Assembly (NCBI GenBank): GCA_035559815.1
Contig: DATMAT010000017.1
Location: forward strand, 1 to 55,633
Length of the DNA: 55,633 nucleotides
Direction: 5' to 3'
Origin: Thermodesulfobacteriota bacterium
Lineage (GTDB): Bacteria; Desulfobacterota_D; UBA1144; Nemesobacterales; CSP1-2
Notes under the pieces: generated by a model
The model's database searches: none
Told to the model about the DNA's origin: nothing
The model's input: the letters and a program-made list of their open reading frames with translations, nothing else
Shown here: positions 38,804 to 47,747 of the stretch, one piece after another
Layout: every line of letters begins with the position of its first letter
Numbering within the stretch: the stretch's first letter is position 1
Made by a program: the position numbers and the translations under genes

Positions 38804-40858
38804 ATGAAGGTATCGCAGGCGCTTAGCTTGTTTACTCATCTGATCGCACTGATAGGGTTCTTTACCATCTGCGTCTCTGGGCAAGTGAGCGTGCTGGGAA
38901 TCACTATTTTTCTCTCTTCACTCTTCCTCAGCTACATAAACGAGAGATACCAGAAGCAGTATTACCTAGACCAGAGGTTTGTAACCCTGCTGGCATTTGC
39001 GCTTTTGCTGTATGCGTTTTTAAGTATAGTGGTTTTTGGTAAGGATGCCTTTAATGTTATCCTGACTTTCCTGATATACACCCAGGTCATAAAGCTTTTG
39101 GGAAGAAAGGATATGAGGGATTATATCCAAATCTTCATCCTCAGCTTCTTTCATTTTCTTGCCGGAACCATCCTCACCGTCGATTTTTCTTATGGAATAG
39201 CCTTTGTCGTGTATGTCTCCGTTGCTCTATGGGCAATCATCGTCCTTAGCATGAGAAAGGAATCCATGGAAGCTTCGAGCAACGATGACCCGCGAGTGGT
39301 AACCCCTCTTTTTCTGAGCTCGACCGTGATAATCAGCTTCGGTATTTTTGCGTTCACCGCATTGATGTTTGTTTCTATCCCCCGCTTGAAAAGCGGGTTT
39401 CTGACCAGCGCCTTCATCAGACCGGAGGCTTTGAAGACCGGCTTTTCGGACGAAGTTAAGCTAGGACAGGTGGGAGAGATTAAGCTCGATAGCTCCCCGG
39501 TGATGAGGGTCAAGATTCTAAATAGCGACCCGGAGTCTCTTCCGGAGACTATATACTGGAGGGGGATAGCGCTCGACCATTTTGACGGAACTACCTGGAG
39601 GGCCAGCAACAGAGACTACAAAATGTACAAGAGTGACCCGGAGGGGGTCATACGGGTAAAGGAAAATGGGGACAGAGTTCTGGTGCAGGAAATAGTCACC
39701 GAACCCCTTGACACCGATGTAATTTTTGCCGGCAGCTTGCCGGTTGGATTTAAGGGAATAGCCGGGGGCAGGTTAGCCGAGTTTAACGATTCCTATGTGC
39801 TCCCGGTTAAACTTTCTTACAGGTTAAAGTACACAGCTTACTCTGACTTATCTAGCCCGCTGCCTAGGGACTTACGTGAAGAAAAAAATAAGTATCCTGC
39901 CCTTATAAAAAGGCATTACCTTCAGCTCCCCCCGATGGACGAGAGGATAAGCGAGCTGGCCCGAGAGATAACTAAGCTTGATAGGAATCCCTATGACCAG
40001 GCAGTCTCGGTCAAAAGATACCTGGTCACCAACATGGGCTATACCCGGACTCTTCCCCCCGGGGCCGGCGAATTTCCGCTTGAGGACTTCCTCTTTGAGA
40101 GTAAAGCGGGCCATTGCGAGTATTTTGCCACGGCCATGGTGGTGCTCTTGAGAGAGGTGGGCATACCGGCAAGGATAGTAAACGGGTTTGTGGGAGGAGA
40201 ATGGAACGAGTACGGTAACTTCTTTCTCCTCCGCGAAAGCAACGCTCATTCCTGGGTAGAAGTATATTTTCCGGAGAGCGGATGGGTTATTTTTGACCCC
40301 ACTCCTGCCGGCAATGATAGTCTAGCTGCCGACGACTCTCTCTTTTTTATCCGCTCCTATCTCGATTACTTGAAATATAAATGGAGCAGATACGTTGTGG
40401 ACTTCAATCAGCAGGACCAGGTCCGTCTCTTCGATGAGTTTCGGAGCGGCTGGTCCTGGCGGAAAAATAACCTGGAAAATAGAGTAGACCGAGTAACAAG
40501 TCTTCATAAGAAATGGCTCGTTGGGTTTCTCCTCGTAGCTCTGGTAGGATGGACTCTCTATAACCGGTCGGACCTGAGATACTTCATCGGTTATAGGAGT
40601 AAGAAGCCGCTGGAGAAGGCTTCCGTAATCTATAAAAAAAGCCTTTCCCTTCTCTCCAAGAAGGGCTATCCCAAGGCCGAGCACTTAACCCCAAGAGAAT
40701 TCGCCCGGGATGTGACCAAAGAGGGTGGAGCACGGTTTCATACCTTTGTCGAACTCACCGAAAAATACCTGAACCTCAGGTTCGGAGGCGAAGCCGTGAA
40801 GTCTAAACTTCTCGAGTTGGAAGCGCTATTAGATAGGCTTAGAAAAGAGATCAAGTAA
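38804..40858 (+). CDS. TgpA-type membrane transglutaminase-like protein
   Basis: The 684-residue protein has about six N-terminal membrane helices (residues 8-195, DUF3488 region). A large periplasmic domain follows with the transglutaminase triad: Cys in KAGHCEYFATAMVVLLREVGIPAR (near 428), His in ESNAHSWVEVYF (near 472) and Asp in WVIFDPTPAG (near 490). A last helix (residues 570-590) and a cytosolic DUF4129-like tail complete it. TgpA is needed for growth in Pseudomonas. Usual neighbours (MoxR ATPase, DUF58) are not next to it here. Confidence 0.93.
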   Translation: MKVSQALSLFTHLIALIGFFTICVSGQVSVLGITIFLSSLFLSYINERYQKQYYLDQRFVTLLAFALLLYAFLSIVVFGKDAFNVILTFLIYTQVIKLLGRKDMRDYIQIFILSFFHFLAGTILTVDFSYGIAFVVYVSVALWAIIVLSMRKESMEASSNDDPRVVTPLFLSSTVIISFGIFAFTALMFVSIPRLKSGFLTSAFIRPEALKTGFSDEVKLGQVGEIKLDSSPVMRVKILNSDPESLPETIYWRGIALDHFDGTTWRASNRDYKMYKSDPEGVIRVKENGDRVLVQEIVTEPLDTDVIFAGSLPVGFKGIAGGRLAEFNDSYVLPVKLSYRLKYTAYSDLSSPLPRDLREEKNKYPALIKRHYLQLPPMDERISELAREITKLDRNPYDQAVSVKRYLVTNMGYTRTLPPGAGEFPLEDFLFESKAGHCEYFATAMVVLLREVGIPARIVNGFVGGEWNEYGNFFLLRESNAHSWVEVYFPESGWVIFDPTPAGNDSLAADDSLFFIRSYLDYLKYKWSRYVVDFNQQDQVRLFDEFRSGWSWRKNNLENRVDRVTSLHKKWLVGFLLVALVGWTLYNRSDLRYFIGYRSKKPLEKASVIYKKSLSLLSKKGYPKAEHLTPREFARDVTKEGGARFHTFVELTEKYLNLRFGGEAVKSKLLELEALLDRLRKEIK

Positions 40859-40960
40859 AGCCAGCATTTCAATTCGGAGTTAGCTTAAACTTAGATTAAT
40901 TAGATTATTACTGCGTCTTTTATGAAGTTGCTTATGTTTGCCTATCCAGGAATGTAGAAT

Positions 40961-40993
40961 GTAGGGAACGCATATATGCGTTCCTTACAATTA
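40961..40993. repeat. Short palindromic repeat, copy A
   Basis: The 20-base perfect palindrome GGAACGCATATATGCGTTCC (40965-40984) is flanked by GTAG and TTACAATT. The same outer sequence, GTAGGGAACG...GCGTTCCTTACAATT, recurs at 43498-43530 with a different centre, and as split ends at 42567-42620 and 43275-43327. Confidence 0.75.
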
Positions 40994-41105
40994 AAATTGT
41001 TCATGCGTAAACCGTGGAATCAAGCATACTTTTACCACGAAGCCGTAGTGAATCAGTCATTTAAGTTTTACGAGAAATTAATCTTGAAACGAGTTATATC
41101 CACTC

Positions 41106-41594
41106 TCATAAACCAAAAGCAAACCGAATTATTACATATGGAATAGAGCTCAAGATTACGACCACTATTGCCCTTGGCGTCTCGCAGTCTAAGGCCTGCC
41201 TTACCGCAACGACGAAGGCGGCCAGGCCCCAGAAAAATACTACCGCATATACTAAAAAGCCGACCAAGGGTATTAGACCGAGGATATTTAACACATGCGG
41301 AGAATAAGCAAATCCGAGACACCTCAGGAGCTCGCTGATTCCCACTCTCCGGTTAAGGAGTATGGCTACCAGGAAAATAATGGCGCTCCACAGTACCCAT
41401 CCCACTATTGCCGATATCAGCCCTTTTAATATTCCCACCGAGTCCCCCGTCCCCAGTGTTCCGATCGCGCTGCAGATCCCCACTATTAAAACGACCAGCA
41501 AGGCTTCTCTTGTAGCCTCCTCGTCCTTTTCCACCTCTTCATAGAACTCGGCCTCGAGCTTCGCCGCTCTTATCATCTTCTCGATTAGATTCAT
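41106..41594 (-). CDS. Yip1-domain-like membrane protein
   Basis: From the ATG at 41594 (GGGGAG site six bases upstream) the protein has about 162 residues. After a charged cytosolic helix (residues 1-35, EAEFYEEVEKDEEATREA) come four to five membrane helices with the Yip1-like pattern: LRCLGFAYSPHVLNILGLIP, then VYAVVFFWGLAAFVVAVRQAL. Bacterial Yip1-like proteins have no settled function. No operon partner. Confidence 0.78.
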   Translation of the reverse strand: MNLIEKMIRAAKLEAEFYEEVEKDEEATREALLVVLIVGICSAIGTLGTGDSVGILKGLISAIVGWVLWSAIIFLVAILLNRRVGISELLRCLGFAYSPHVLNILGLIPLVGFLVYAVVFFWGLAAFVVAVRQALDCETPRAIVVVILSSIPYVIIRFAFGL

Positions 41595-41695
41595 TCTTGG
41601 CTCCCCTGAAGATAGTTTCATAATTTATAACAATTTTTTGGTAATAAAGTCAAATCCGTTTTCTTTGGATTAACCATCAAAAATCTCCTCTAGAG

Positions 41696-41775
41696 ACCTG
41701 TCCTGAGCAGCGCCGAAGGATGTGTTCCTTGTAAGTCCCCGCTAGAGAGGGGTGTCCCGAAGGGACAGGGTGTGT
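41696..41775 (+). repeat. 80-bp composite repeat, copy E
   Basis: This block is identical, base for base, with 42581-42660. It consists of CCTGTCCTGAGCAGCGCCG, the GTTCCTTGTAAG half of the short palindrome, then TCCCCGCTAGAGAGGGG and the GTCCCGAAGGGAC hairpin, ending GGGTGTGT. The 5' half of the short palindrome is missing here. A partial start of another copy (ACCTGTCCTGAG) lies at 41824. Confidence 0.85.
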
Positions 41776-41886
41776 TGTAACAGCAGATGCAAATCCGCTC
41801 GTACTGAGCCCATAGTAAGTAACACCTGTCCTGAGCCTGGTTGAAGGGCAGAGAGATACGTTCCTATTTTTCAGCCCTGCTACCGA

Positions 41887-42153
41887 TTATCTGGCCAGTT
41901 TATGAAGCTTTTCTTTAAGCCAGGTGTTAATCAGTTTCTCAGATGACACTTTCTTCTTTTTAGCAACTTTATTCAGCTTGGGAATTATTTCTTCATCAAT
42001 TGCAACGAGATGTTTTCTATTTTTGATTCTTATATCAAAATGAGCTTCTGGCATTTGATCTACATACTCGCCCATATCGTGAGTATCGAAGAACTCTATA
42101 AGCTTATCTAATGATTCAAATTTCGGTAGGGCTTTAGCTTTATTTCTTGCCAT
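41887..42153 (-). CDS. brnA: BrnA/CopG-type antitoxin
   Basis: The 88-residue protein starts with a basic segment and the LPKFESLDKLIEFFDTHDM region typical of the CopG-antitoxin (BrnA-like) family. The C-terminal half (HLVAIDEEIIPKLNKVAKKK, VSSEKLINTWLKEKL) forms a ribbon-helix-helix DNA-binding domain. In the BrnTA family the antitoxin gene follows the toxin, as here, and the dimer represses the promoter. Overlaps brnT by 14 bases. Confidence 0.82.
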   Translation of the reverse strand: MARNKAKALPKFESLDKLIEFFDTHDMGEYVDQMPEAHFDIRIKNRKHLVAIDEEIIPKLNKVAKKKKVSSEKLINTWLKEKLHKLAR

Positions 42154-42424
42154 ATAATTTTCTTTCCTTATCTGCCATGTCTCTTGCGCTCAATACCAAG
42201 GCCTCTTTAGTTTTCTTGTAGATAAACAATACTGCCAGGTACCTACCAGCGTCTGTTCGTCCTAGTGCCATATATACATCCTCTCCTTTTCGCTCACCCT
42301 TTTGAATAAGCCGAATTTTAGGCTTGCTATTGAGTGCTTGTTCAACCTCATCGGGTTCGACGTGATGTTTGAAGGCGAGTTTGTCTACTACTTCTCTGAG
42401 CCAGATTACGCCCTCAATTTTCAT
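42140..42424 (-). CDS. brnT: BrnT-type toxin
   Basis: From the ATG at 42424 the protein has about 94 residues; a GTG seven codons earlier is possible. Family-like blocks are HHVEPDEVEQAL, DVYMALGRTDAGRYLAVLFIYKK and ALVLSARDMADKERKLY, matching the BrnT pattern (SAR-x-M near the end). BrnT is a RelE-fold ribonuclease toxin. Toxin-first order is characteristic. The pair is bracketed by two identical 80-base repeats. Confidence 0.8.
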   Translation of the reverse strand: MKIEGVIWLREVVDKLAFKHHVEPDEVEQALNSKPKIRLIQKGERKGEDVYMALGRTDAGRYLAVLFIYKKTKEALVLSARDMADKERKLYGKK

Positions 42425-42566
42425 CAGGTGTTCTCTCACTTGCACCTGTGCAGTCTATTTTACCCTATTTTTTCAATGCACTGAAACGAGGTTTGTATCA
42501 AACAGAAACCGTTCTATATTAACCTGGGTTCTAGGTTAGAGTAGGTTGTAGGAAATGTAATTCTTG

Positions 42567-42660
42567 GTAGGGAACGCAGAACCTGTCCTGAGCAGCGCCG
42601 AAGGATGTGTTCCTTGTAAGTCCCCGCTAGAGAGGGGTGTCCCGAAGGGACAGGGTGTGT
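42567..42660 (+). repeat. Composite repeat, copy C
   Basis: It starts with GGTAGGGAACGCA (the 5' half of the short palindrome), then the 80-base block identical to 41696-41775. Its end, GGGTGTGT, lies 9 bases from the stop of the DUF559 gene. The final part is in inverted orientation to the repeat at 43071-43155. Confidence 0.85.
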
Positions 42661-42669
42661 AACTGTGTC

Positions 42670-43077
42670 CTACTTTCCGTGCTTTTTCTCATACTCCAAA
42701 ATCCAGCTTTCTATGGATTGAAGAACGCTGTTTACATCTTTTTTAACTTCTCTATCATCAAACCTTAAGAAGCGAACTCCGAGGCTTTCCAGTCTTTGCT
42801 CCCTGGTCATATCTCTTATATAAACCTTCTCGGAATCATGGCTGACTCCGTCGATTTCTACTGCCAGCATGAGCTTGCTGCAAAAAAAATCTACGATATA
42901 GTCGTCAATCGGTTTCTGTCGGTGAAAATCGTAACCGAGCATTTGTTTCCCCTTCAGATGTTGCCAGAGAAAGATTTCAGATAATGTGCTGTTCTTCCGC
43001 AATTTTCTGGCGAGTTCTTTTAGCTTGGGGTTGTAGGGGATGATTGTGCGTCTCTTCAATATGCACAGATTACACAC
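42670..43077 (-). CDS. DUF559 (Vsr-like) endonuclease-domain protein
   Basis: The protein has the DUF559 pattern: NPKLKELARKLRKNSTLSEIFLWQHLKGKQ, then DFHRQKPIDDYIVDFFCSKLMLAVEIDG with the PD-(D/E)xK-like Asp and Glu, and LGVRFLRFDDREV near the end. Members are related to the very-short-patch-repair nuclease fold; their role is unknown. I suggest a GTG at 43077, which has a GAGGGG site eight bases upstream; a TTG at 43095 gives a longer frame. Both signals lie inside the flanking repeat. The gene is enclosed by inverted repeat copies. Confidence 0.8.
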   Translation of the reverse strand: MCNLCILKRRTIIPYNPKLKELARKLRKNSTLSEIFLWQHLKGKQMLGYDFHRQKPIDDYIVDFFCSKLMLAVEIDGVSHDSEKVYIRDMTREQRLESLGVRFLRFDDREVKKDVNSVLQSIESWILEYEKKHGK

Positions 43078-43155
43078 CCCTAAATCCCCTCTCAAGAGGG
43101 GACTTGATAGAAAATCCCTCTACAGAGTTGTGACTCAGGGGGGTCGTGGTGTGTG
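43071..43155. repeat. Composite repeat, copy F (inverted relative to copy C)
   Basis: It begins with ACACACCCC, has the hairpin CCCCTCTCAAGAGGGG, continues with ACTTGATAGAAAATCCC, a degenerate second hairpin, and ends GTGGTGTGT. Its first half matches the reverse complement of the last part of copy C without the GTCCCGAAGGGAC insert. It overlaps the beginning of the DUF559 frame. A GAGAGGGTGTCCCGAAGG piece follows at about 43161-43179. Confidence 0.75.
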
Positions 43156-43274
43156 CCTCTCGAGAGGGTGTCCCGAAGGAATGGAAAAGATATTTTAAGG
43201 AATATGGCCAGGGCAGAACTTACATAGCAAATATAAAAAGAAGGTAATCTGATTTTAAGAAGGCGTTTTTATCT

Positions 43275-43368
43275 GTAGGGAATGCATAACCTATCCTGAG
43301 CAACGCCGAAGGATGCGTTCCTTGTAAGTCCCCTCTAGAGAGGGGTGTCCCGAAGGGACGGGGTGTAT
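43275..43368 (+). repeat. Composite repeat, copy D
   Basis: GTAGGGAATGCA, then the CCTATCCTGAGCAACGCCG block, GCGTTCCTTGTAAG, CCCCTCTAGAGAGGGG, GTCCCGAAGGGAC and GGGGTGTAT. It differs from copies C and E at about eight positions but has all modules. It lies in the gap between DUF559 and dhaA, which holds no gene. Confidence 0.8.
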
Positions 43369-43497
43369 TGGTTTTAACAGAGGTATCCCTAAGGGTACAA
43401 AGGCTGTTTAATCAAATATGGTCAGGACTGCAGTTGCATAGCGAGCACAATTAATGTCAATTCGGAGTATAAGTAGGTTGCGAGAGTTGTGCTTTCT

Positions 43498-43530
43498 GTA
43501 GGGAACGCCGATCTGCGTTCCTTACAATTT
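43498..43530. repeat. Short palindromic repeat, copy B
   Basis: TGTAGGGAACGC, four to six differing centre bases, then GCGTTCCTTACAATTT. Same outer sequence as 40961-40993. It lies 5 bases beyond the dhaA stop region. Confidence 0.75.
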
Positions 43531-43534
43531 CAGC

Positions 43535-44425
43535 TCAGAAAAGGCTTTTGTACCAGCTAGCCAGCTCTCTACCAATGAAATGTGGATTGTCCTCTTGCAG
43601 GTAATGGATCCCCGGTCCAATATCCACCGTCTTCAAGTGCCTCAAGTTCTGCTTACACCATTCCAACACCGGCGCTTTGATAAGCGCACCCGGATTACCA
43701 TAGAATAGTAGCTTCGGCAGGTCCGTCCTCTGGAGCCACGCGTTGTAGGTTTCGACAGTCTTTACCACATCGGCGGGTTCTCCTTCGATGGGGAGTTCGT
43801 TGGGCCAGCGCCAGACGGGCCTAAGGCTGCTCGTTTCTTTGAACGGCTCCCGGTAGTGGTTCATTTCCTCTACGCTCAACTTTCGGACTATTGATCCAGG
43901 TAGTATTAGTTCGATGAACATGTTCTTGTTCACAATCATGTCCCAGCCCACATCCGGAGTCCGAAAGCCCTGGAAAATCTCTTTGACTTCCTGGGGAAAC
44001 ATTTCCCAACTTGGCACTGGTAGGACGATCGCTTCCATGAATGCCAGACCCTTAACATTGCTCTCGTGGCGCATGGCGTAGTAGAAGCCGAGGGCCGAAC
44101 CCCAGTCGTGTACCACTAAGGTAATATTCCTTAGACCCATCTTTTCGATGAAGCCATCTATGTATTTCAGGTGGTCGAAAAAGCGATATTCTATATCCGG
44201 CTTGTCCGACTTGCCCATTCCGATGAGGTCAGGAGCTATGCAGCGGGCCAAGGGTGTCACATAAGGGATGATGTTCCGCCAAAGGTATGAGGAAGTGGGA
44301 TTGCCGTGAAGAAAGAGCACCGGGTCTCCTGTGCCCTCGTCAACATAGTGCATCCTTGAACCGTGAACCTCGATGTAATTGGGTTTGTAAGGAAACTCCG
44401 CCGAGATTTCTTGTTTTGTAGTCAT
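43535..44425 (-). CDS. dhaA: Haloalkane dehalogenase
   Basis: The 296-residue alpha/beta hydrolase has the haloalkane dehalogenase signature of the DhaA/LinB group. The nucleophile Asp107 and halide-binding Trp108 lie in VVHDWGSALGF, the halide-binding Asn42 in HGNPTSSYLWRN, the acid Glu131 in AFMEAIV and the base His274 in GPGIHYLQEDNP. It cleaves carbon-halogen bonds to give an alcohol and halide. Length is normal and all catalytic residues are present. It lies in a repeat-rich stretch beside the restriction island, so it may have arrived by transfer. Substrate range unknown. Confidence 0.94.
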   Translation of the reverse strand: MTTKQEISAEFPYKPNYIEVHGSRMHYVDEGTGDPVLFLHGNPTSSYLWRNIIPYVTPLARCIAPDLIGMGKSDKPDIEYRFFDHLKYIDGFIEKMGLRNITLVVHDWGSALGFYYAMRHESNVKGLAFMEAIVLPVPSWEMFPQEVKEIFQGFRTPDVGWDMIVNKNMFIELILPGSIVRKLSVEEMNHYREPFKETSSLRPVWRWPNELPIEGEPADVVKTVETYNAWLQRTDLPKLLFYGNPGALIKAPVLEWCKQNLRHLKTVDIGPGIHYLQEDNPHFIGRELASWYKSLF

Positions 44426-44459
44426 TATTATTGCTCCTTGATTGTGATATTTGAGTGTT

Positions 44460-44543
44460 ACACACTCCTATATCCCCTCTCAAGAGGGGACTTCACAACA
44501 AAATCCCCTCTAGAGAGGGGTGACTCGTAGAGTCGGGGTGTGT
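44460..44543. repeat. Palindromic repeat with ACACAC/GTGTGT ends, copy G
   Basis: ACACACTCC and GGGGTGTGT are terminal inverted repeats with one mismatch. Inside are CCCCTCTCAAGAGGGG and CCCCTCTAGAGAGGGG, both perfect hairpins. It ends 3 bases before the hsdR stop codon. It is closest to copy F and may act as a bidirectional transcript end between hsdR and dhaA. Confidence 0.8.
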
Positions 44544-44546
44544 TAG

Positions 44547-47500
44547 TCACGCCGTCGCCCACTCATAAGAAAGCACTTCCGCCTGCTCAAGCACGGTCTG
44601 TGTTGCCTTTTCCTGTTTGTCCGGCGGGTAGCCGTATTTACGCAAAATACGCTTAACCAGTACCCGTAAATGAGCGCGTACGTTCTCTCGCATAGTCCAA
44701 TCAATGGTGACGTTGGCGCGAACTGTCTTTACCAACTCGCGCGCAATCGTGCGAAGTGTCTCATCACCCAATACCTTCACTGCACTGTCGTTGGTCTCAA
44801 GTGCGTCATAGAATGCGACTTCTTCTTCGGTAAGGCCGAGTGCCTCTCCCCTTGCGTTTGCCTGTCGCATCTCTTTGGCCAGCTCGATCAATTCCTCGAT
44901 TACCTGTGCCGCTTCGATTGCCCGGTTCTGATAGCGCCGGATGGCTTGCTCCAGCATTTCGGAGAAAGAGCGTGCCTGTACTACATTTTTACGCCTGCGA
45001 GTACGAATCTCGCCGGACAGCAGCTTACGTAAGAGTTCCACGGCGAGGTTTCGCTGTGGCATCCCTCGTATCTCAGACAGGAATTCATCCGATAGAATAG
45101 AGATGTCAGGCTTTTCCAGCCCGGCGGCGGTAAAGATATCTATCACACCTTCGGGTGCAATTGCACGCGAGACGATCTGCCTGACAGCCTGGTCCAGCTC
45201 TTCCTCAGTTCTTGCCTCACCCGGGGCGCGTTTGACCAGGCTGGCCCGCACTGCCTGGAAGAATGCAACGTCGTCCCGAATGCGAAGCGCATCTTCATGA
45301 GGAACGGCCAGTGCAAAGGCCTGGGACAGCTCTAGTACAGCATGCAACAATCGGTTCTTCCCATCCTCCTGGGCCAGGATATGTTCCTGTGCAGATGGCA
45401 GTACCCCAAGACGCTCCCCAGGGGTTCCAGTGATCCACTTTGACCAGTCAAAGCCGTGGAAGAGGCCGCAGCAGACTTCATATTTTTCCAGCATCGCCGC
45501 GACTGCTTCCTTTTGGTCGATGGCCGTCTTTCCCGTGCCGCCGCTCTCGGTGTAGGTGGCGAGCGCCTGCTTGAGTTCGTGTGCTAATCCCAGGTAATCC
45601 ACCACCAGACCGCCCGGCTTTTCCCGGAAGACGCGATTCACCCGCGCAATCGCCTGCATAAGACCATGCCCGCGCATAGGTTTATCCATATACATTGTAT
45701 GGAGTGATGGTGCGTCAAAGCCGGTGAGCCACATATCACGAACGATTACGATTTTGAACGGGTCTTTCGGGTTTCGGAAACGATTGGCAAGTATTTCTCG
45801 GCGCAGTTTGTTGCGGATATGAGGCTGCCAGTCTAGCGGGTCAGAGGCCGAGCCGGTCATAACCACCTTAATCATTCCCTTATCATCGTCTCCGTGATAC
45901 CAGTCAGGCCGTAATTCAACGATCTCGTGATGAAGCTCGACGCAGATACGACGGCTCATGCACACTACCATCGCCTTTCCTTCATCACCCGTCTGCCGCC
46001 ACATAGCATCGGCACGCTTTTCGAAGTGCTCGACTATATCTTTGGCGATAAGCTTGAGACGCTTCTCAGAGCCTACGATAGCTTCAAGCTGGGCCCACTT
46101 GCTCTTGAGCTTCTCCTTACGTTCAACCTCTTCGCCCTCGGTTACCTCCTCAAACTCCGGGTCGATTCTCAGCCTTTCCGATTCGTCCAGGTCGAGTTTC
46201 GCCAGTCTACTTTCATAATAGATTGGTACAGTCGCCTTGTCTTCGACCGCCCGCTGGATGTCATATATGCTGATGTAATCGCCGAATACCGCGCGGGTGT
46301 TCTTGTCGGTGAGCTCGATCGGAGTACCGGTGAAACCGATAAAGGAAGCATTAGGCAGGGCATCATGCATGTGACGGGCGAAGCCGTCGATGAAATCATA
46401 CTGACTCCGGTGAGCCTCGTCGGCTATGACGACGATGTTGCGGCGAGAGGAGAGCACTTCTTTTCTTCTCCCTCTCCCCTCCGCGGGAGAGGGTAGGGGT
46501 GAGGGGGATTCAGGCAGGAACTTGTGAATGGTGGTGAAGACAACGCCGCCCGCGTCTACTGAAAGTTTAGCCCGCAGGTCCTCGCGGTTCTCTGCCTGTA
46601 CCGGGGGCTGTCGCAGTAAATCCTTACATCGTGAGAATGTGCCGAAGAGCTGGTCATCCAGGTCGTTACGGTCGGTGATAACGACGATGGTGGGATTCGA
46701 CATTTGCGGCTCTCGGATCACGCGGCCTGCATAAAAAGCCATAATAAGGCTCTTTCCCGATCCCTGTGTGTGCCAAACCACTCCGATACGCCGGTCTCCG
46801 GGCTGGCCGCCGTGCCGGAGACCTGCTTCGTATCTGCCCTCTTTTTCTTTTATGCGCTTTAAATTTGCTGCCCTGAGAGTCTCTGTAAGGGCAACATTAA
46901 CAGCATGAAACTGGTGATAACCGGCCATCTTCTTGACCGGCACGTCGCTGCCGTCATCCTCGAACACTATGAAATATCGGATCATGTCGAGCAGTCTTCG
47001 TTTCTCGAAGATACCTTCGATCATCACCTGAAGCTCCGGCAGATGTGGATCGGCCAGGGTCTCTCCGGTGATTGTTCTCCAGGGCTTAAACCACTCGCGG
47101 TTTGCAGTGAGTGTGCCTATTCGCGCTTGCATACCATCGGAAATAACCAGCAGTTCGTTAAAAGCAAAGAACGTAGGCAGTTCTGCCTTGTAGGTTTGTA
47201 ACTGCTGAAAAGCAGACCAGATTGTTGCGCCCTCGTCGGCCGCGTTCTTAAGCTCGATTGCGGCGAGAGGCAAGCCATTGATGAATAACACTACGTCTGG
47301 CCGCCGCGTGTGCTTGCCTGCCTGTCCGGCAGACAGGTTCTCACTGATAGTGAACTGGTTGACGACGAGAAAGTCGTTGTTGTCCGCATTGTCAAAATCA
47401 ATCACCTGCGCCTGTGCGCCGTGGATAGAGCCATCAGACATGCGGTACTCCACCGTCACACCGTCTACGAGCAGATGGTGGACAGCACGATTTCGCACCT

Positions 47501-47747
47501 CCAGTGTCGGACCCTCCGGTCGTGTGAGTTTGCGAAAGGCGTCTTTAACGGCTTCAGCGGGAAGCATTGGATTGAGCCTCATGAGGGCGTCCTGTAGTCG
47601 TTGCTCCAGCACGACTTTGCCGTAATCTGCCCGCTCTGCAAAAAGCTCACCTGGAGCAATGTCAAGGCCGTGCTTAACCGTCCAGCCGAGTCTTTCCAGC
47701 CAGTCGAGGGCAGCATCTTCGACGACTGATTCACTGAAACTACTCAT
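44547..47747 (-). CDS. hsdR: Type I restriction enzyme, R subunit
   Basis: The 1066-residue motor and nuclease subunit has an N-terminal PD-ExK nuclease ([21 protein letters not shown] near residue 150). SF2 helicase motifs follow: [12 protein letters not shown] (motif I), [25 protein letters not shown] (DEAH), FIGFTGTPI (III) and [11 protein letters not shown] (VI). It translocates DNA and cuts distant from the recognition site. Two stretches look inserted in frame by palindromic repeats: [13 protein letters not shown] near 415-428 and SAGQAGK near 137-143. It overlaps the OLD gene by 4 bases. Confidence 0.95.
46470..46493. repeat. In-frame palindromic insertion in hsdR
   Basis: CCCTCTCCC (46470-46478) pairs with GGGAGAGGG (46485-46493). 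The encoded Pro/Ser/Gly/Arg-rich stretch lies between the KFLPE segment and the DEAH motif, where relatives have a short variable loop. Similar elements sit in hsdM. Confidence 0.75.
47321..47337. repeat. Small palindrome inserted in hsdR near the nuclease motif
   Basis: CCTGTC (47321-47326) pairs with GACAGG (47332-47337); a CTGCC/GGCAG overlap extends it. It encodes SAGQAGK just before HTRRPDVV, where the usual protein has only a short ENG/GH-type link. The insertion keeps the frame. Confidence 0.5.

Follow-up and report, generated by a model that had tools for sequence, protein, structure and literature searches.

A DUF559 nuclease gene enclosed by inverted REP-like repeats as a candidate mobile cassette

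A small nuclease gene of the DUF559 family lies between inverted copies of a hairpin repeat in a contig of a Thermodesulfobacteriota bacterium (DATMAT010000017.1; the whole stretch of 55,633 nucleotides is referred to as the window), and DUF559 genes in other bacteria are frequently flanked in the same way. From this association we infer, with somewhat better than even confidence, a mobile cassette whose nuclease, of the Vsr/EDxHD fold, spreads itself and gene-less copies of its repeats. Because the same gene-between-repeats arrangement recurs in many phyla, the little-studied DUF559 family probably moves short repeats, in a way akin to the known REP transposases but without kinship to them. 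The original prediction had read the locus as a mobile unit, and this reading gains support from comparative sequence evidence, namely the enrichment of repeats at DUF559 flanks, filled and empty alleles of one site, and the relation between repeat number and intact gene in Pontibacter.

The nuclease gene and the repeats of the window

The features of the region, in window positions, are:
40961-40990, + strand: GTAG-tagged palindrome (GTAGGGAACGCATATATGCGTTCC), of a family separate from the DUF559 repeat
41733-41776, + strand: half copy within a composite repeat (repeat comparison)
42567-42617, + strand: foreign part of composite copy C, a GTAG palindrome interrupted by a TCCTGAGC..GCCGAAGGA hairpin, from another repeat family
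42618-42660, + strand: half repeat of two hairpins past the DUF559 stop, GGGTGTGT tag towards the gene, hairpin with compensatory changes
42670-43059, − strand: DUF559/Vsr-like nuclease gene, 129 codons from the probable start TTG 43059, stop side at 42670
43072-43155, + strand: REPIN-like doublet (copy F) on the 5' side of the gene, 83% identical to the 44460 element
43156-43271, − strand: leader on the upstream side of the doublet; about five gene-less derivatives of the cassette in the same genome have a homologous leader
43326-43368, + strand: half copy within a composite repeat (repeat comparison)
43498-43527, + strand: GTAG-tagged palindrome of the same separate family as that at 40961
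44460-44543, + strand: solo complete REPIN-like doublet, tags outward (sequence inspection, genome matches)

Profile searches identified the window protein as a stand-alone DUF559 domain (PF04480, E=1e-30; REase_MTES_1575, E=1e-9). Its Pfam matches were PF04480 and PF18741 only, and the HUH Y1 tyrosine transposase family (PF01797) was not among them. The AF2 model (pLDDT 92.6) matched the DUF559-like protein 3hrl and the domain of the homing endonuclease I-Bth0305I (E=1.2e-4), and more weakly Vsr (1vsr), while the sequence profile also matched 3r3p (I-Bth0305I, E=1.7e-6). In terms of predicted structure, I-Bth0305I is the nearest characterised fold. Six catalytic-type residues (E28, D57, E68, D70, H74, and D83) were invariant across 62 sequences, and the fold and these conserved acidic and histidine residues are those of an EDxHD/Vsr-like nuclease. 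PADLOC gave only weak matches, to homing-endonuclease and restriction models. A BrnT/CopG-type toxin-antitoxin pair adjoins the cassette, and on the other side the hydrolase gene is followed by a type I restriction R gene (window 41887-42445 and 44547-47747).

The gene probably starts at TTG 43059, and the in-frame upstream GTG 43077 and TTG 43095 are less likely, because homologues open with MKRxIIPYNPKLK and related cassette remnants in the same genome have an ATG at this position. With this start, the repeat would lie just upstream of the gene and is probably not the source of its start codon, which had been placed at GTG 43077 within the repeat. The 5'-side repeat may nevertheless contribute to the ribosome-binding sequence.

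The GTGTGT/ACACAC tags of both flanking repeats point towards the gene. Copy F consists of a ACACACCCC tag and a CCCCTCT..AGAGGGG hairpin (43072-43105), followed by a degenerate second half ending in GTGTGT, and the half repeat at 42618-42660 ends 9 bp beyond the stop codon. The original prediction of a gene between inverted copies, with copy C ending 9 bases past the stop, was therefore borne out by these two elements. However, copy C as first drawn (42567-42660) is a DUF559 repeat only from 42618 onwards, the remainder being the foreign GTAG part. Similarly, of the solo copies proposed at 41696, 43275, and 44460, the last is the best of the complete copies, running from an ACACAC tag through a hairpin, a spacer, and two hairpins to a GTGTGT tag, whereas the other two are composites, beginning at 41682 and 43275, that merely hold half copies. 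In each of the three composites at 41682, 42567, and 43275, a GTAG palindrome, or part of one, is split by a TCCTGAGC..GCCGAAGGA hairpin and joined to half a DUF559 repeat. The presumed short versions at 40961 and 43498 turned out to be the separate GTAG-tagged palindrome GTAGGGAACGCA..TGCGTTCC, which is RAYT-REP-like by its tag and was also seen at L021, L032, and L045.

Compensatory changes were found in the second hairpin of 15 half copies (GACTC/GAGTC, GGCTC/GAGCC, GTCCC/GGGAC, and GTCAC/GTGAC), with 15 double-change cells against 4.8 in shuffled data (0/500). Window positions 40500-45000 gave no Rfam match at E<=0.1.

Inverted flanks of DUF559 genes across bacteria

One genome-collection scan for proteins similar to the window protein or its relatives yielded a first sample of 80 relatives. 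For each gene, the upstream 200 bp were aligned to the reverse complement of the downstream 200 bp, and a score>=16 was counted as positive. Inverted similar flanks were found at 49/78 DUF559 genes, compared with 32/839 other ORFs of the same loci (OR 43, P=4e-39), and the positive loci spanned at least 14 named phyla. Since the choice of these loci depended on likeness to the window protein and its relatives, the Pfam model was used to draw a second sample from Bacteroidota, in which 31/54 DUF559 genes and 17/545 ORFs were positive (OR 42, P=3e-25). The enrichment, which the original prediction had called for as a check, was about 16- to 18-fold in both samples, with an odds ratio of ~42. After removal of proteins >60% identical, 51/82 DUF559 genes were still flanked. 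A symmetric flank was absent from about 40% of the DUF559 genes, and several subfamilies appear to be without repeats at the surveyed loci.

Intergenic regions in general commonly contain short G+C-rich palindromes, and the flank similarity might be an artefact of such hairpins occurring near any small gene. However, shuffled flanks never scored above 15, small control ORFs passed the same threshold at 4.1%, and the enrichment persisted in the independent sample and after redundancy removal. We consider such an artefact extremely unlikely.

The median distance of the repeat from the gene is 35 bp on the start side and 7 bp on the stop side. At 28/80 DUF559 genes the stop codon is inside the repeat, and the AGGGG of the repeat is often at the expected position of the ribosome-binding site. 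These positions, together with the conservation of tags within protein clades, would suit hairpins that are functional parts of the gene, regulating or insulating a repair or defence nuclease, as in the role of VsrA in Caulobacter (PMC12907096). However, the same repeats are also scattered apart from the gene, with as many as tens in one genome, copies lie in unrelated contexts, and both filled and empty alleles exist. We regard this explanation as very unlikely.

The repeat type follows the DUF559 tree, with 30 changes against 57 in shuffled data (0/200). One clade, that of the AAATCCCCC type, joins Thermodesulfobacteriota, Chloroflexota, and the window's own order. The tags are C-rich (ACACCCC, CCCACCCC, ACAACCCCC, CCCCCACC, and others) rather than GTAG-type tetranucleotides. 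Across Bacteroidota, an exact repeat pattern was not significantly associated with DUF559 (3/5 pattern-positive genomes, compared with 126/296 overall), and the pattern was present without a DUF559 match in G231 and in G348, which had nine copies.

RAYT genes of the same genomes served as a positive control. By the same test, 16/29 had inverted similar flanks, none of them resembling the DUF559 repeat types, so the parallel with RAYT proteins and REP elements drawn at the outset was apt, with different repeats. In the window's own genome a RAYT was considered as the mover and rejected, all six Y1_Tnp matches being without these repeats. No Y1_Tnp match was found in G058 and G076, where DUF559 genes pass the flank test, nor in G064, G075, and G077, where the DUF559 repeats are weaker or one-sided. 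At a Nostoc locus (L368; G073:C76:317333-318202), GATCCCCC-type doublets enclose a DUF559 gene, with a Y1_Tnp gene ~200 bp away, and a TGTGTACAC-like sequence occurs near both edges.

Dispersed copies and alternative alleles

The 44460 element had 34 matches at E<=0.01 on ~17 contigs of its own 3.97-Mb genome, five of them inside the window. Because of these 34 matches, and because equally strong inverted similarity was found at only ~3-4% of neighbouring ORFs, the inverted repeats around the window gene are beyond chance. Extra solo copies within ~10 kb occurred at only 6/49 loci (23 copies, compared with 1.1 expected); therefore, most solo copies are not local.

The three DUF559 HMM matches of this genome are the window gene and two further loci, also edged by hairpin repeats. 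One (on contig C70) is a truncated relative of the window gene in an unrelated context, 83% identical over 255 bp; its stop carries the same repeat, and a doublet takes the place of its missing 5' half. The other (C62) belongs to a different DUF559 subfamily and lies between a different hairpin repeat. A further DUF559 pseudogene was found on C3. Moreover, five "solo" copies (C42, C37, C29, C19, and C52) with unrelated flanks have in common up to ~0.53 kb, comprising the leader, the doublet, the first ~20 DUF559 codons or fewer, and the tail. These shared parts indicate that the nuclease cassette, decayed or with an internal deletion, accounts for some of the "solo" copies. Within the window's own family, G001/G002 hold subfamily-B copies in unrelated contexts, and no clean empty site was seen.

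The ends of five derivatives (L007, L008, L010, L011, and L014) resemble imperfect terminal inverted repeats, TGTCC-AAAATAA, and these derivatives may therefore have been moved by another transposase; such ~0.53-kb elements are possibly a MITE of some other transposase. No target-site duplication was established for the roughly five gene-less derivatives. An enzyme other than the nuclease might be at work more generally, with a RAYT/Y1 or DDE transposase moving the repeats and DUF559 genes hitchhiking between copies. The derivatives with terminal inverted repeats of their own, the closeness of the Nostoc DUF559 gene to a Y1_Tnp gene, and the mixing of several families in the composite repeats are all consistent with a passenger gene. 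However, neighbouring ORFs, small ones included, were flanked at just 3-4%, the repeats at RAYT genes of the same genomes are of other kinds, repeat-flanked DUF559 genes occur in genomes with no Y1_Tnp match (G058 and G076), and the repeat type follows the DUF559 tree. We therefore regard a passenger role as fairly unlikely and favour the nuclease itself as the mover.

Pontibacter genomes provided filled and empty alleles of the kind that had been sought as a check. One intergenic site is filled (repeat-gene-repeat) in four genomes (G058, G059, G080, and G089) and empty in four others, whether ancestrally or by loss: G117 and G115 have a single repeat there, and G114 and G099 have neither repeat nor gene. 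Among 50 Pontibacter genomes, the median number of repeats was 11 in the 32 with an intact cognate gene and 0.5 in the 14 without it (P=7e-5, kinship among genomes ignored), and the four with a broken or partial gene had 21, 0, 0, and 0 repeats. Two genomes, G098 and G124, had 14-15 repeats without the cognate gene, which could be relics.

The nuclease might instead spread only its own gene, homing into existing repeats that serve as target and homology arms and that multiply by other means. The closest characterised fold, a homing endonuclease, and the two empty Pontibacter alleles that have one repeat in the position taken by the gene in other genomes accord with such pure homing. However, repeat number tracks the intact gene in Pontibacter, gene-less derivatives retain 5' remnants of the gene, and the other two empty alleles have no repeat at all. 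On balance, pure homing appears unlikely, and we prefer a nuclease that spreads both gene and repeats.

Further copies bear on the form of the unit. In six Pontibacter genomes, 20 solo elements (L406-L425) have their tags inward, as in the cassette; their cores cluster at 33 bp (4) and 55-59 bp (12) and are unrelated in sequence, which suggests a spacing constraint. Solo doublets with tags outward were found in Bacteroidota G348 and G181 and in the window's genome, so orientation differs between lineages. DUF559-type repeats are dispersed as inverted doublets of a REPIN/BIME-like kind. Paralogues in G003 share 94% identity across 553 bp and lie in unrelated surroundings, and Brocadia (L371) has two near-identical full cassettes 1.7 kb apart. 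In G030 (C2, around 559565-561539), two DUF559 genes lie within ~2 kb, one of them interrupted.

Proposed mechanism and comparison with known systems

In the mechanism that we propose, inverted hairpin repeats with tags facing a small nuclease gene would form the cassette unit. The nuclease would recognise its cognate tag-plus-hairpin repeat and nick or cut there. Cassettes and gene-less doublets would thereby arise as copies at new locations, the simplest route being break repair with a repeat-bearing copy as template. The step itself may be homing-like cut-and-repair, the nicking of hairpins that have been extruded, or transposition in which another enzyme assists. On the comparative evidence, the repeats are probably what the nuclease acts on and what it spreads. 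Whether DUF559 enzymes are, more broadly, a second class of REP mobilisers that spans phyla and is separate from the RAYTs, working by EDxHD/Vsr-type cut-and-repair and giving rise to many common C-rich hairpin repeats (CCCCTCnnGAGGGG types), we judge to be an even question.

For many REP-like repeat families no mover is known, and beyond one Vsr-like case hardly any cellular role has been assigned to DUF559. If the proposal is true, a widespread orphan enzyme family and a widespread orphan repeat class would explain each other, and short-repeat spread would have evolved at least twice with unrelated enzymes. The nuclease and its repeat of ~30-45 nt form a testable pair in culturable genera such as Pontibacter. 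Open-licence PMC papers yielded no link between DUF559 and repeats, and an earlier description elsewhere is possible; DUF559 has been tied to EDxHD in passing (PMC9403480).

RAYTs were first proposed as REP movers on the basis of inverted flanks, cognate abundance, tag-plus-palindrome repeats, and linked phylogeny (PMC2817692), and at the sequence level the DUF559 evidence is of each of these kinds. As in the RAYT/REP system (TnpA-REP, HUH Y1; REPIN/BIME; 'REPtrons'), the gene lies between inverted tag-plus-hairpin repeats, cognate repeats are dispersed as inverted doublets, the repeat type follows the protein, and within one genus (Pontibacter, kinship ignored) genomes with the cognate gene tend to hold more copies. 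However, the DUF559 fold is PD-(D/E)XK/Vsr-like with no Y1_Tnp match, and the tags are C-rich instead of GTAG. Because enzyme fold and tag differ, we do not file the DUF559 system as a RAYT, though on present evidence it appears RAYT-like in its working.

The CGTC REPs are likewise REP-like palindromes, without a known dedicated transposase and with no nuclease partner proposed (PMC3733652), but they have a different tag. As in MITEs, gene-less derivatives share their ends and a 5' gene remnant with the coding copy, which here, unlike in MITEs, does not encode a DDE transposase. The Vsr mismatch endonuclease and Caulobacter VsrA (DUF559) share the fold or domain, and VsrA has been linked to DNA damage in vivo (PMC12907096); an association with repeats is not described for these enzymes in the accessible part of the literature on them. 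The EDxHD homing endonuclease I-Bth0305I is the nearest characterised structure by both profile and fold, and its gene, too, is present or absent at a site. In contrast to I-Bth0305I, the DUF559 protein is free-standing, with no intron or intein and no extra DNA-binding modules, and its gene is flanked by multi-copy palindromes.
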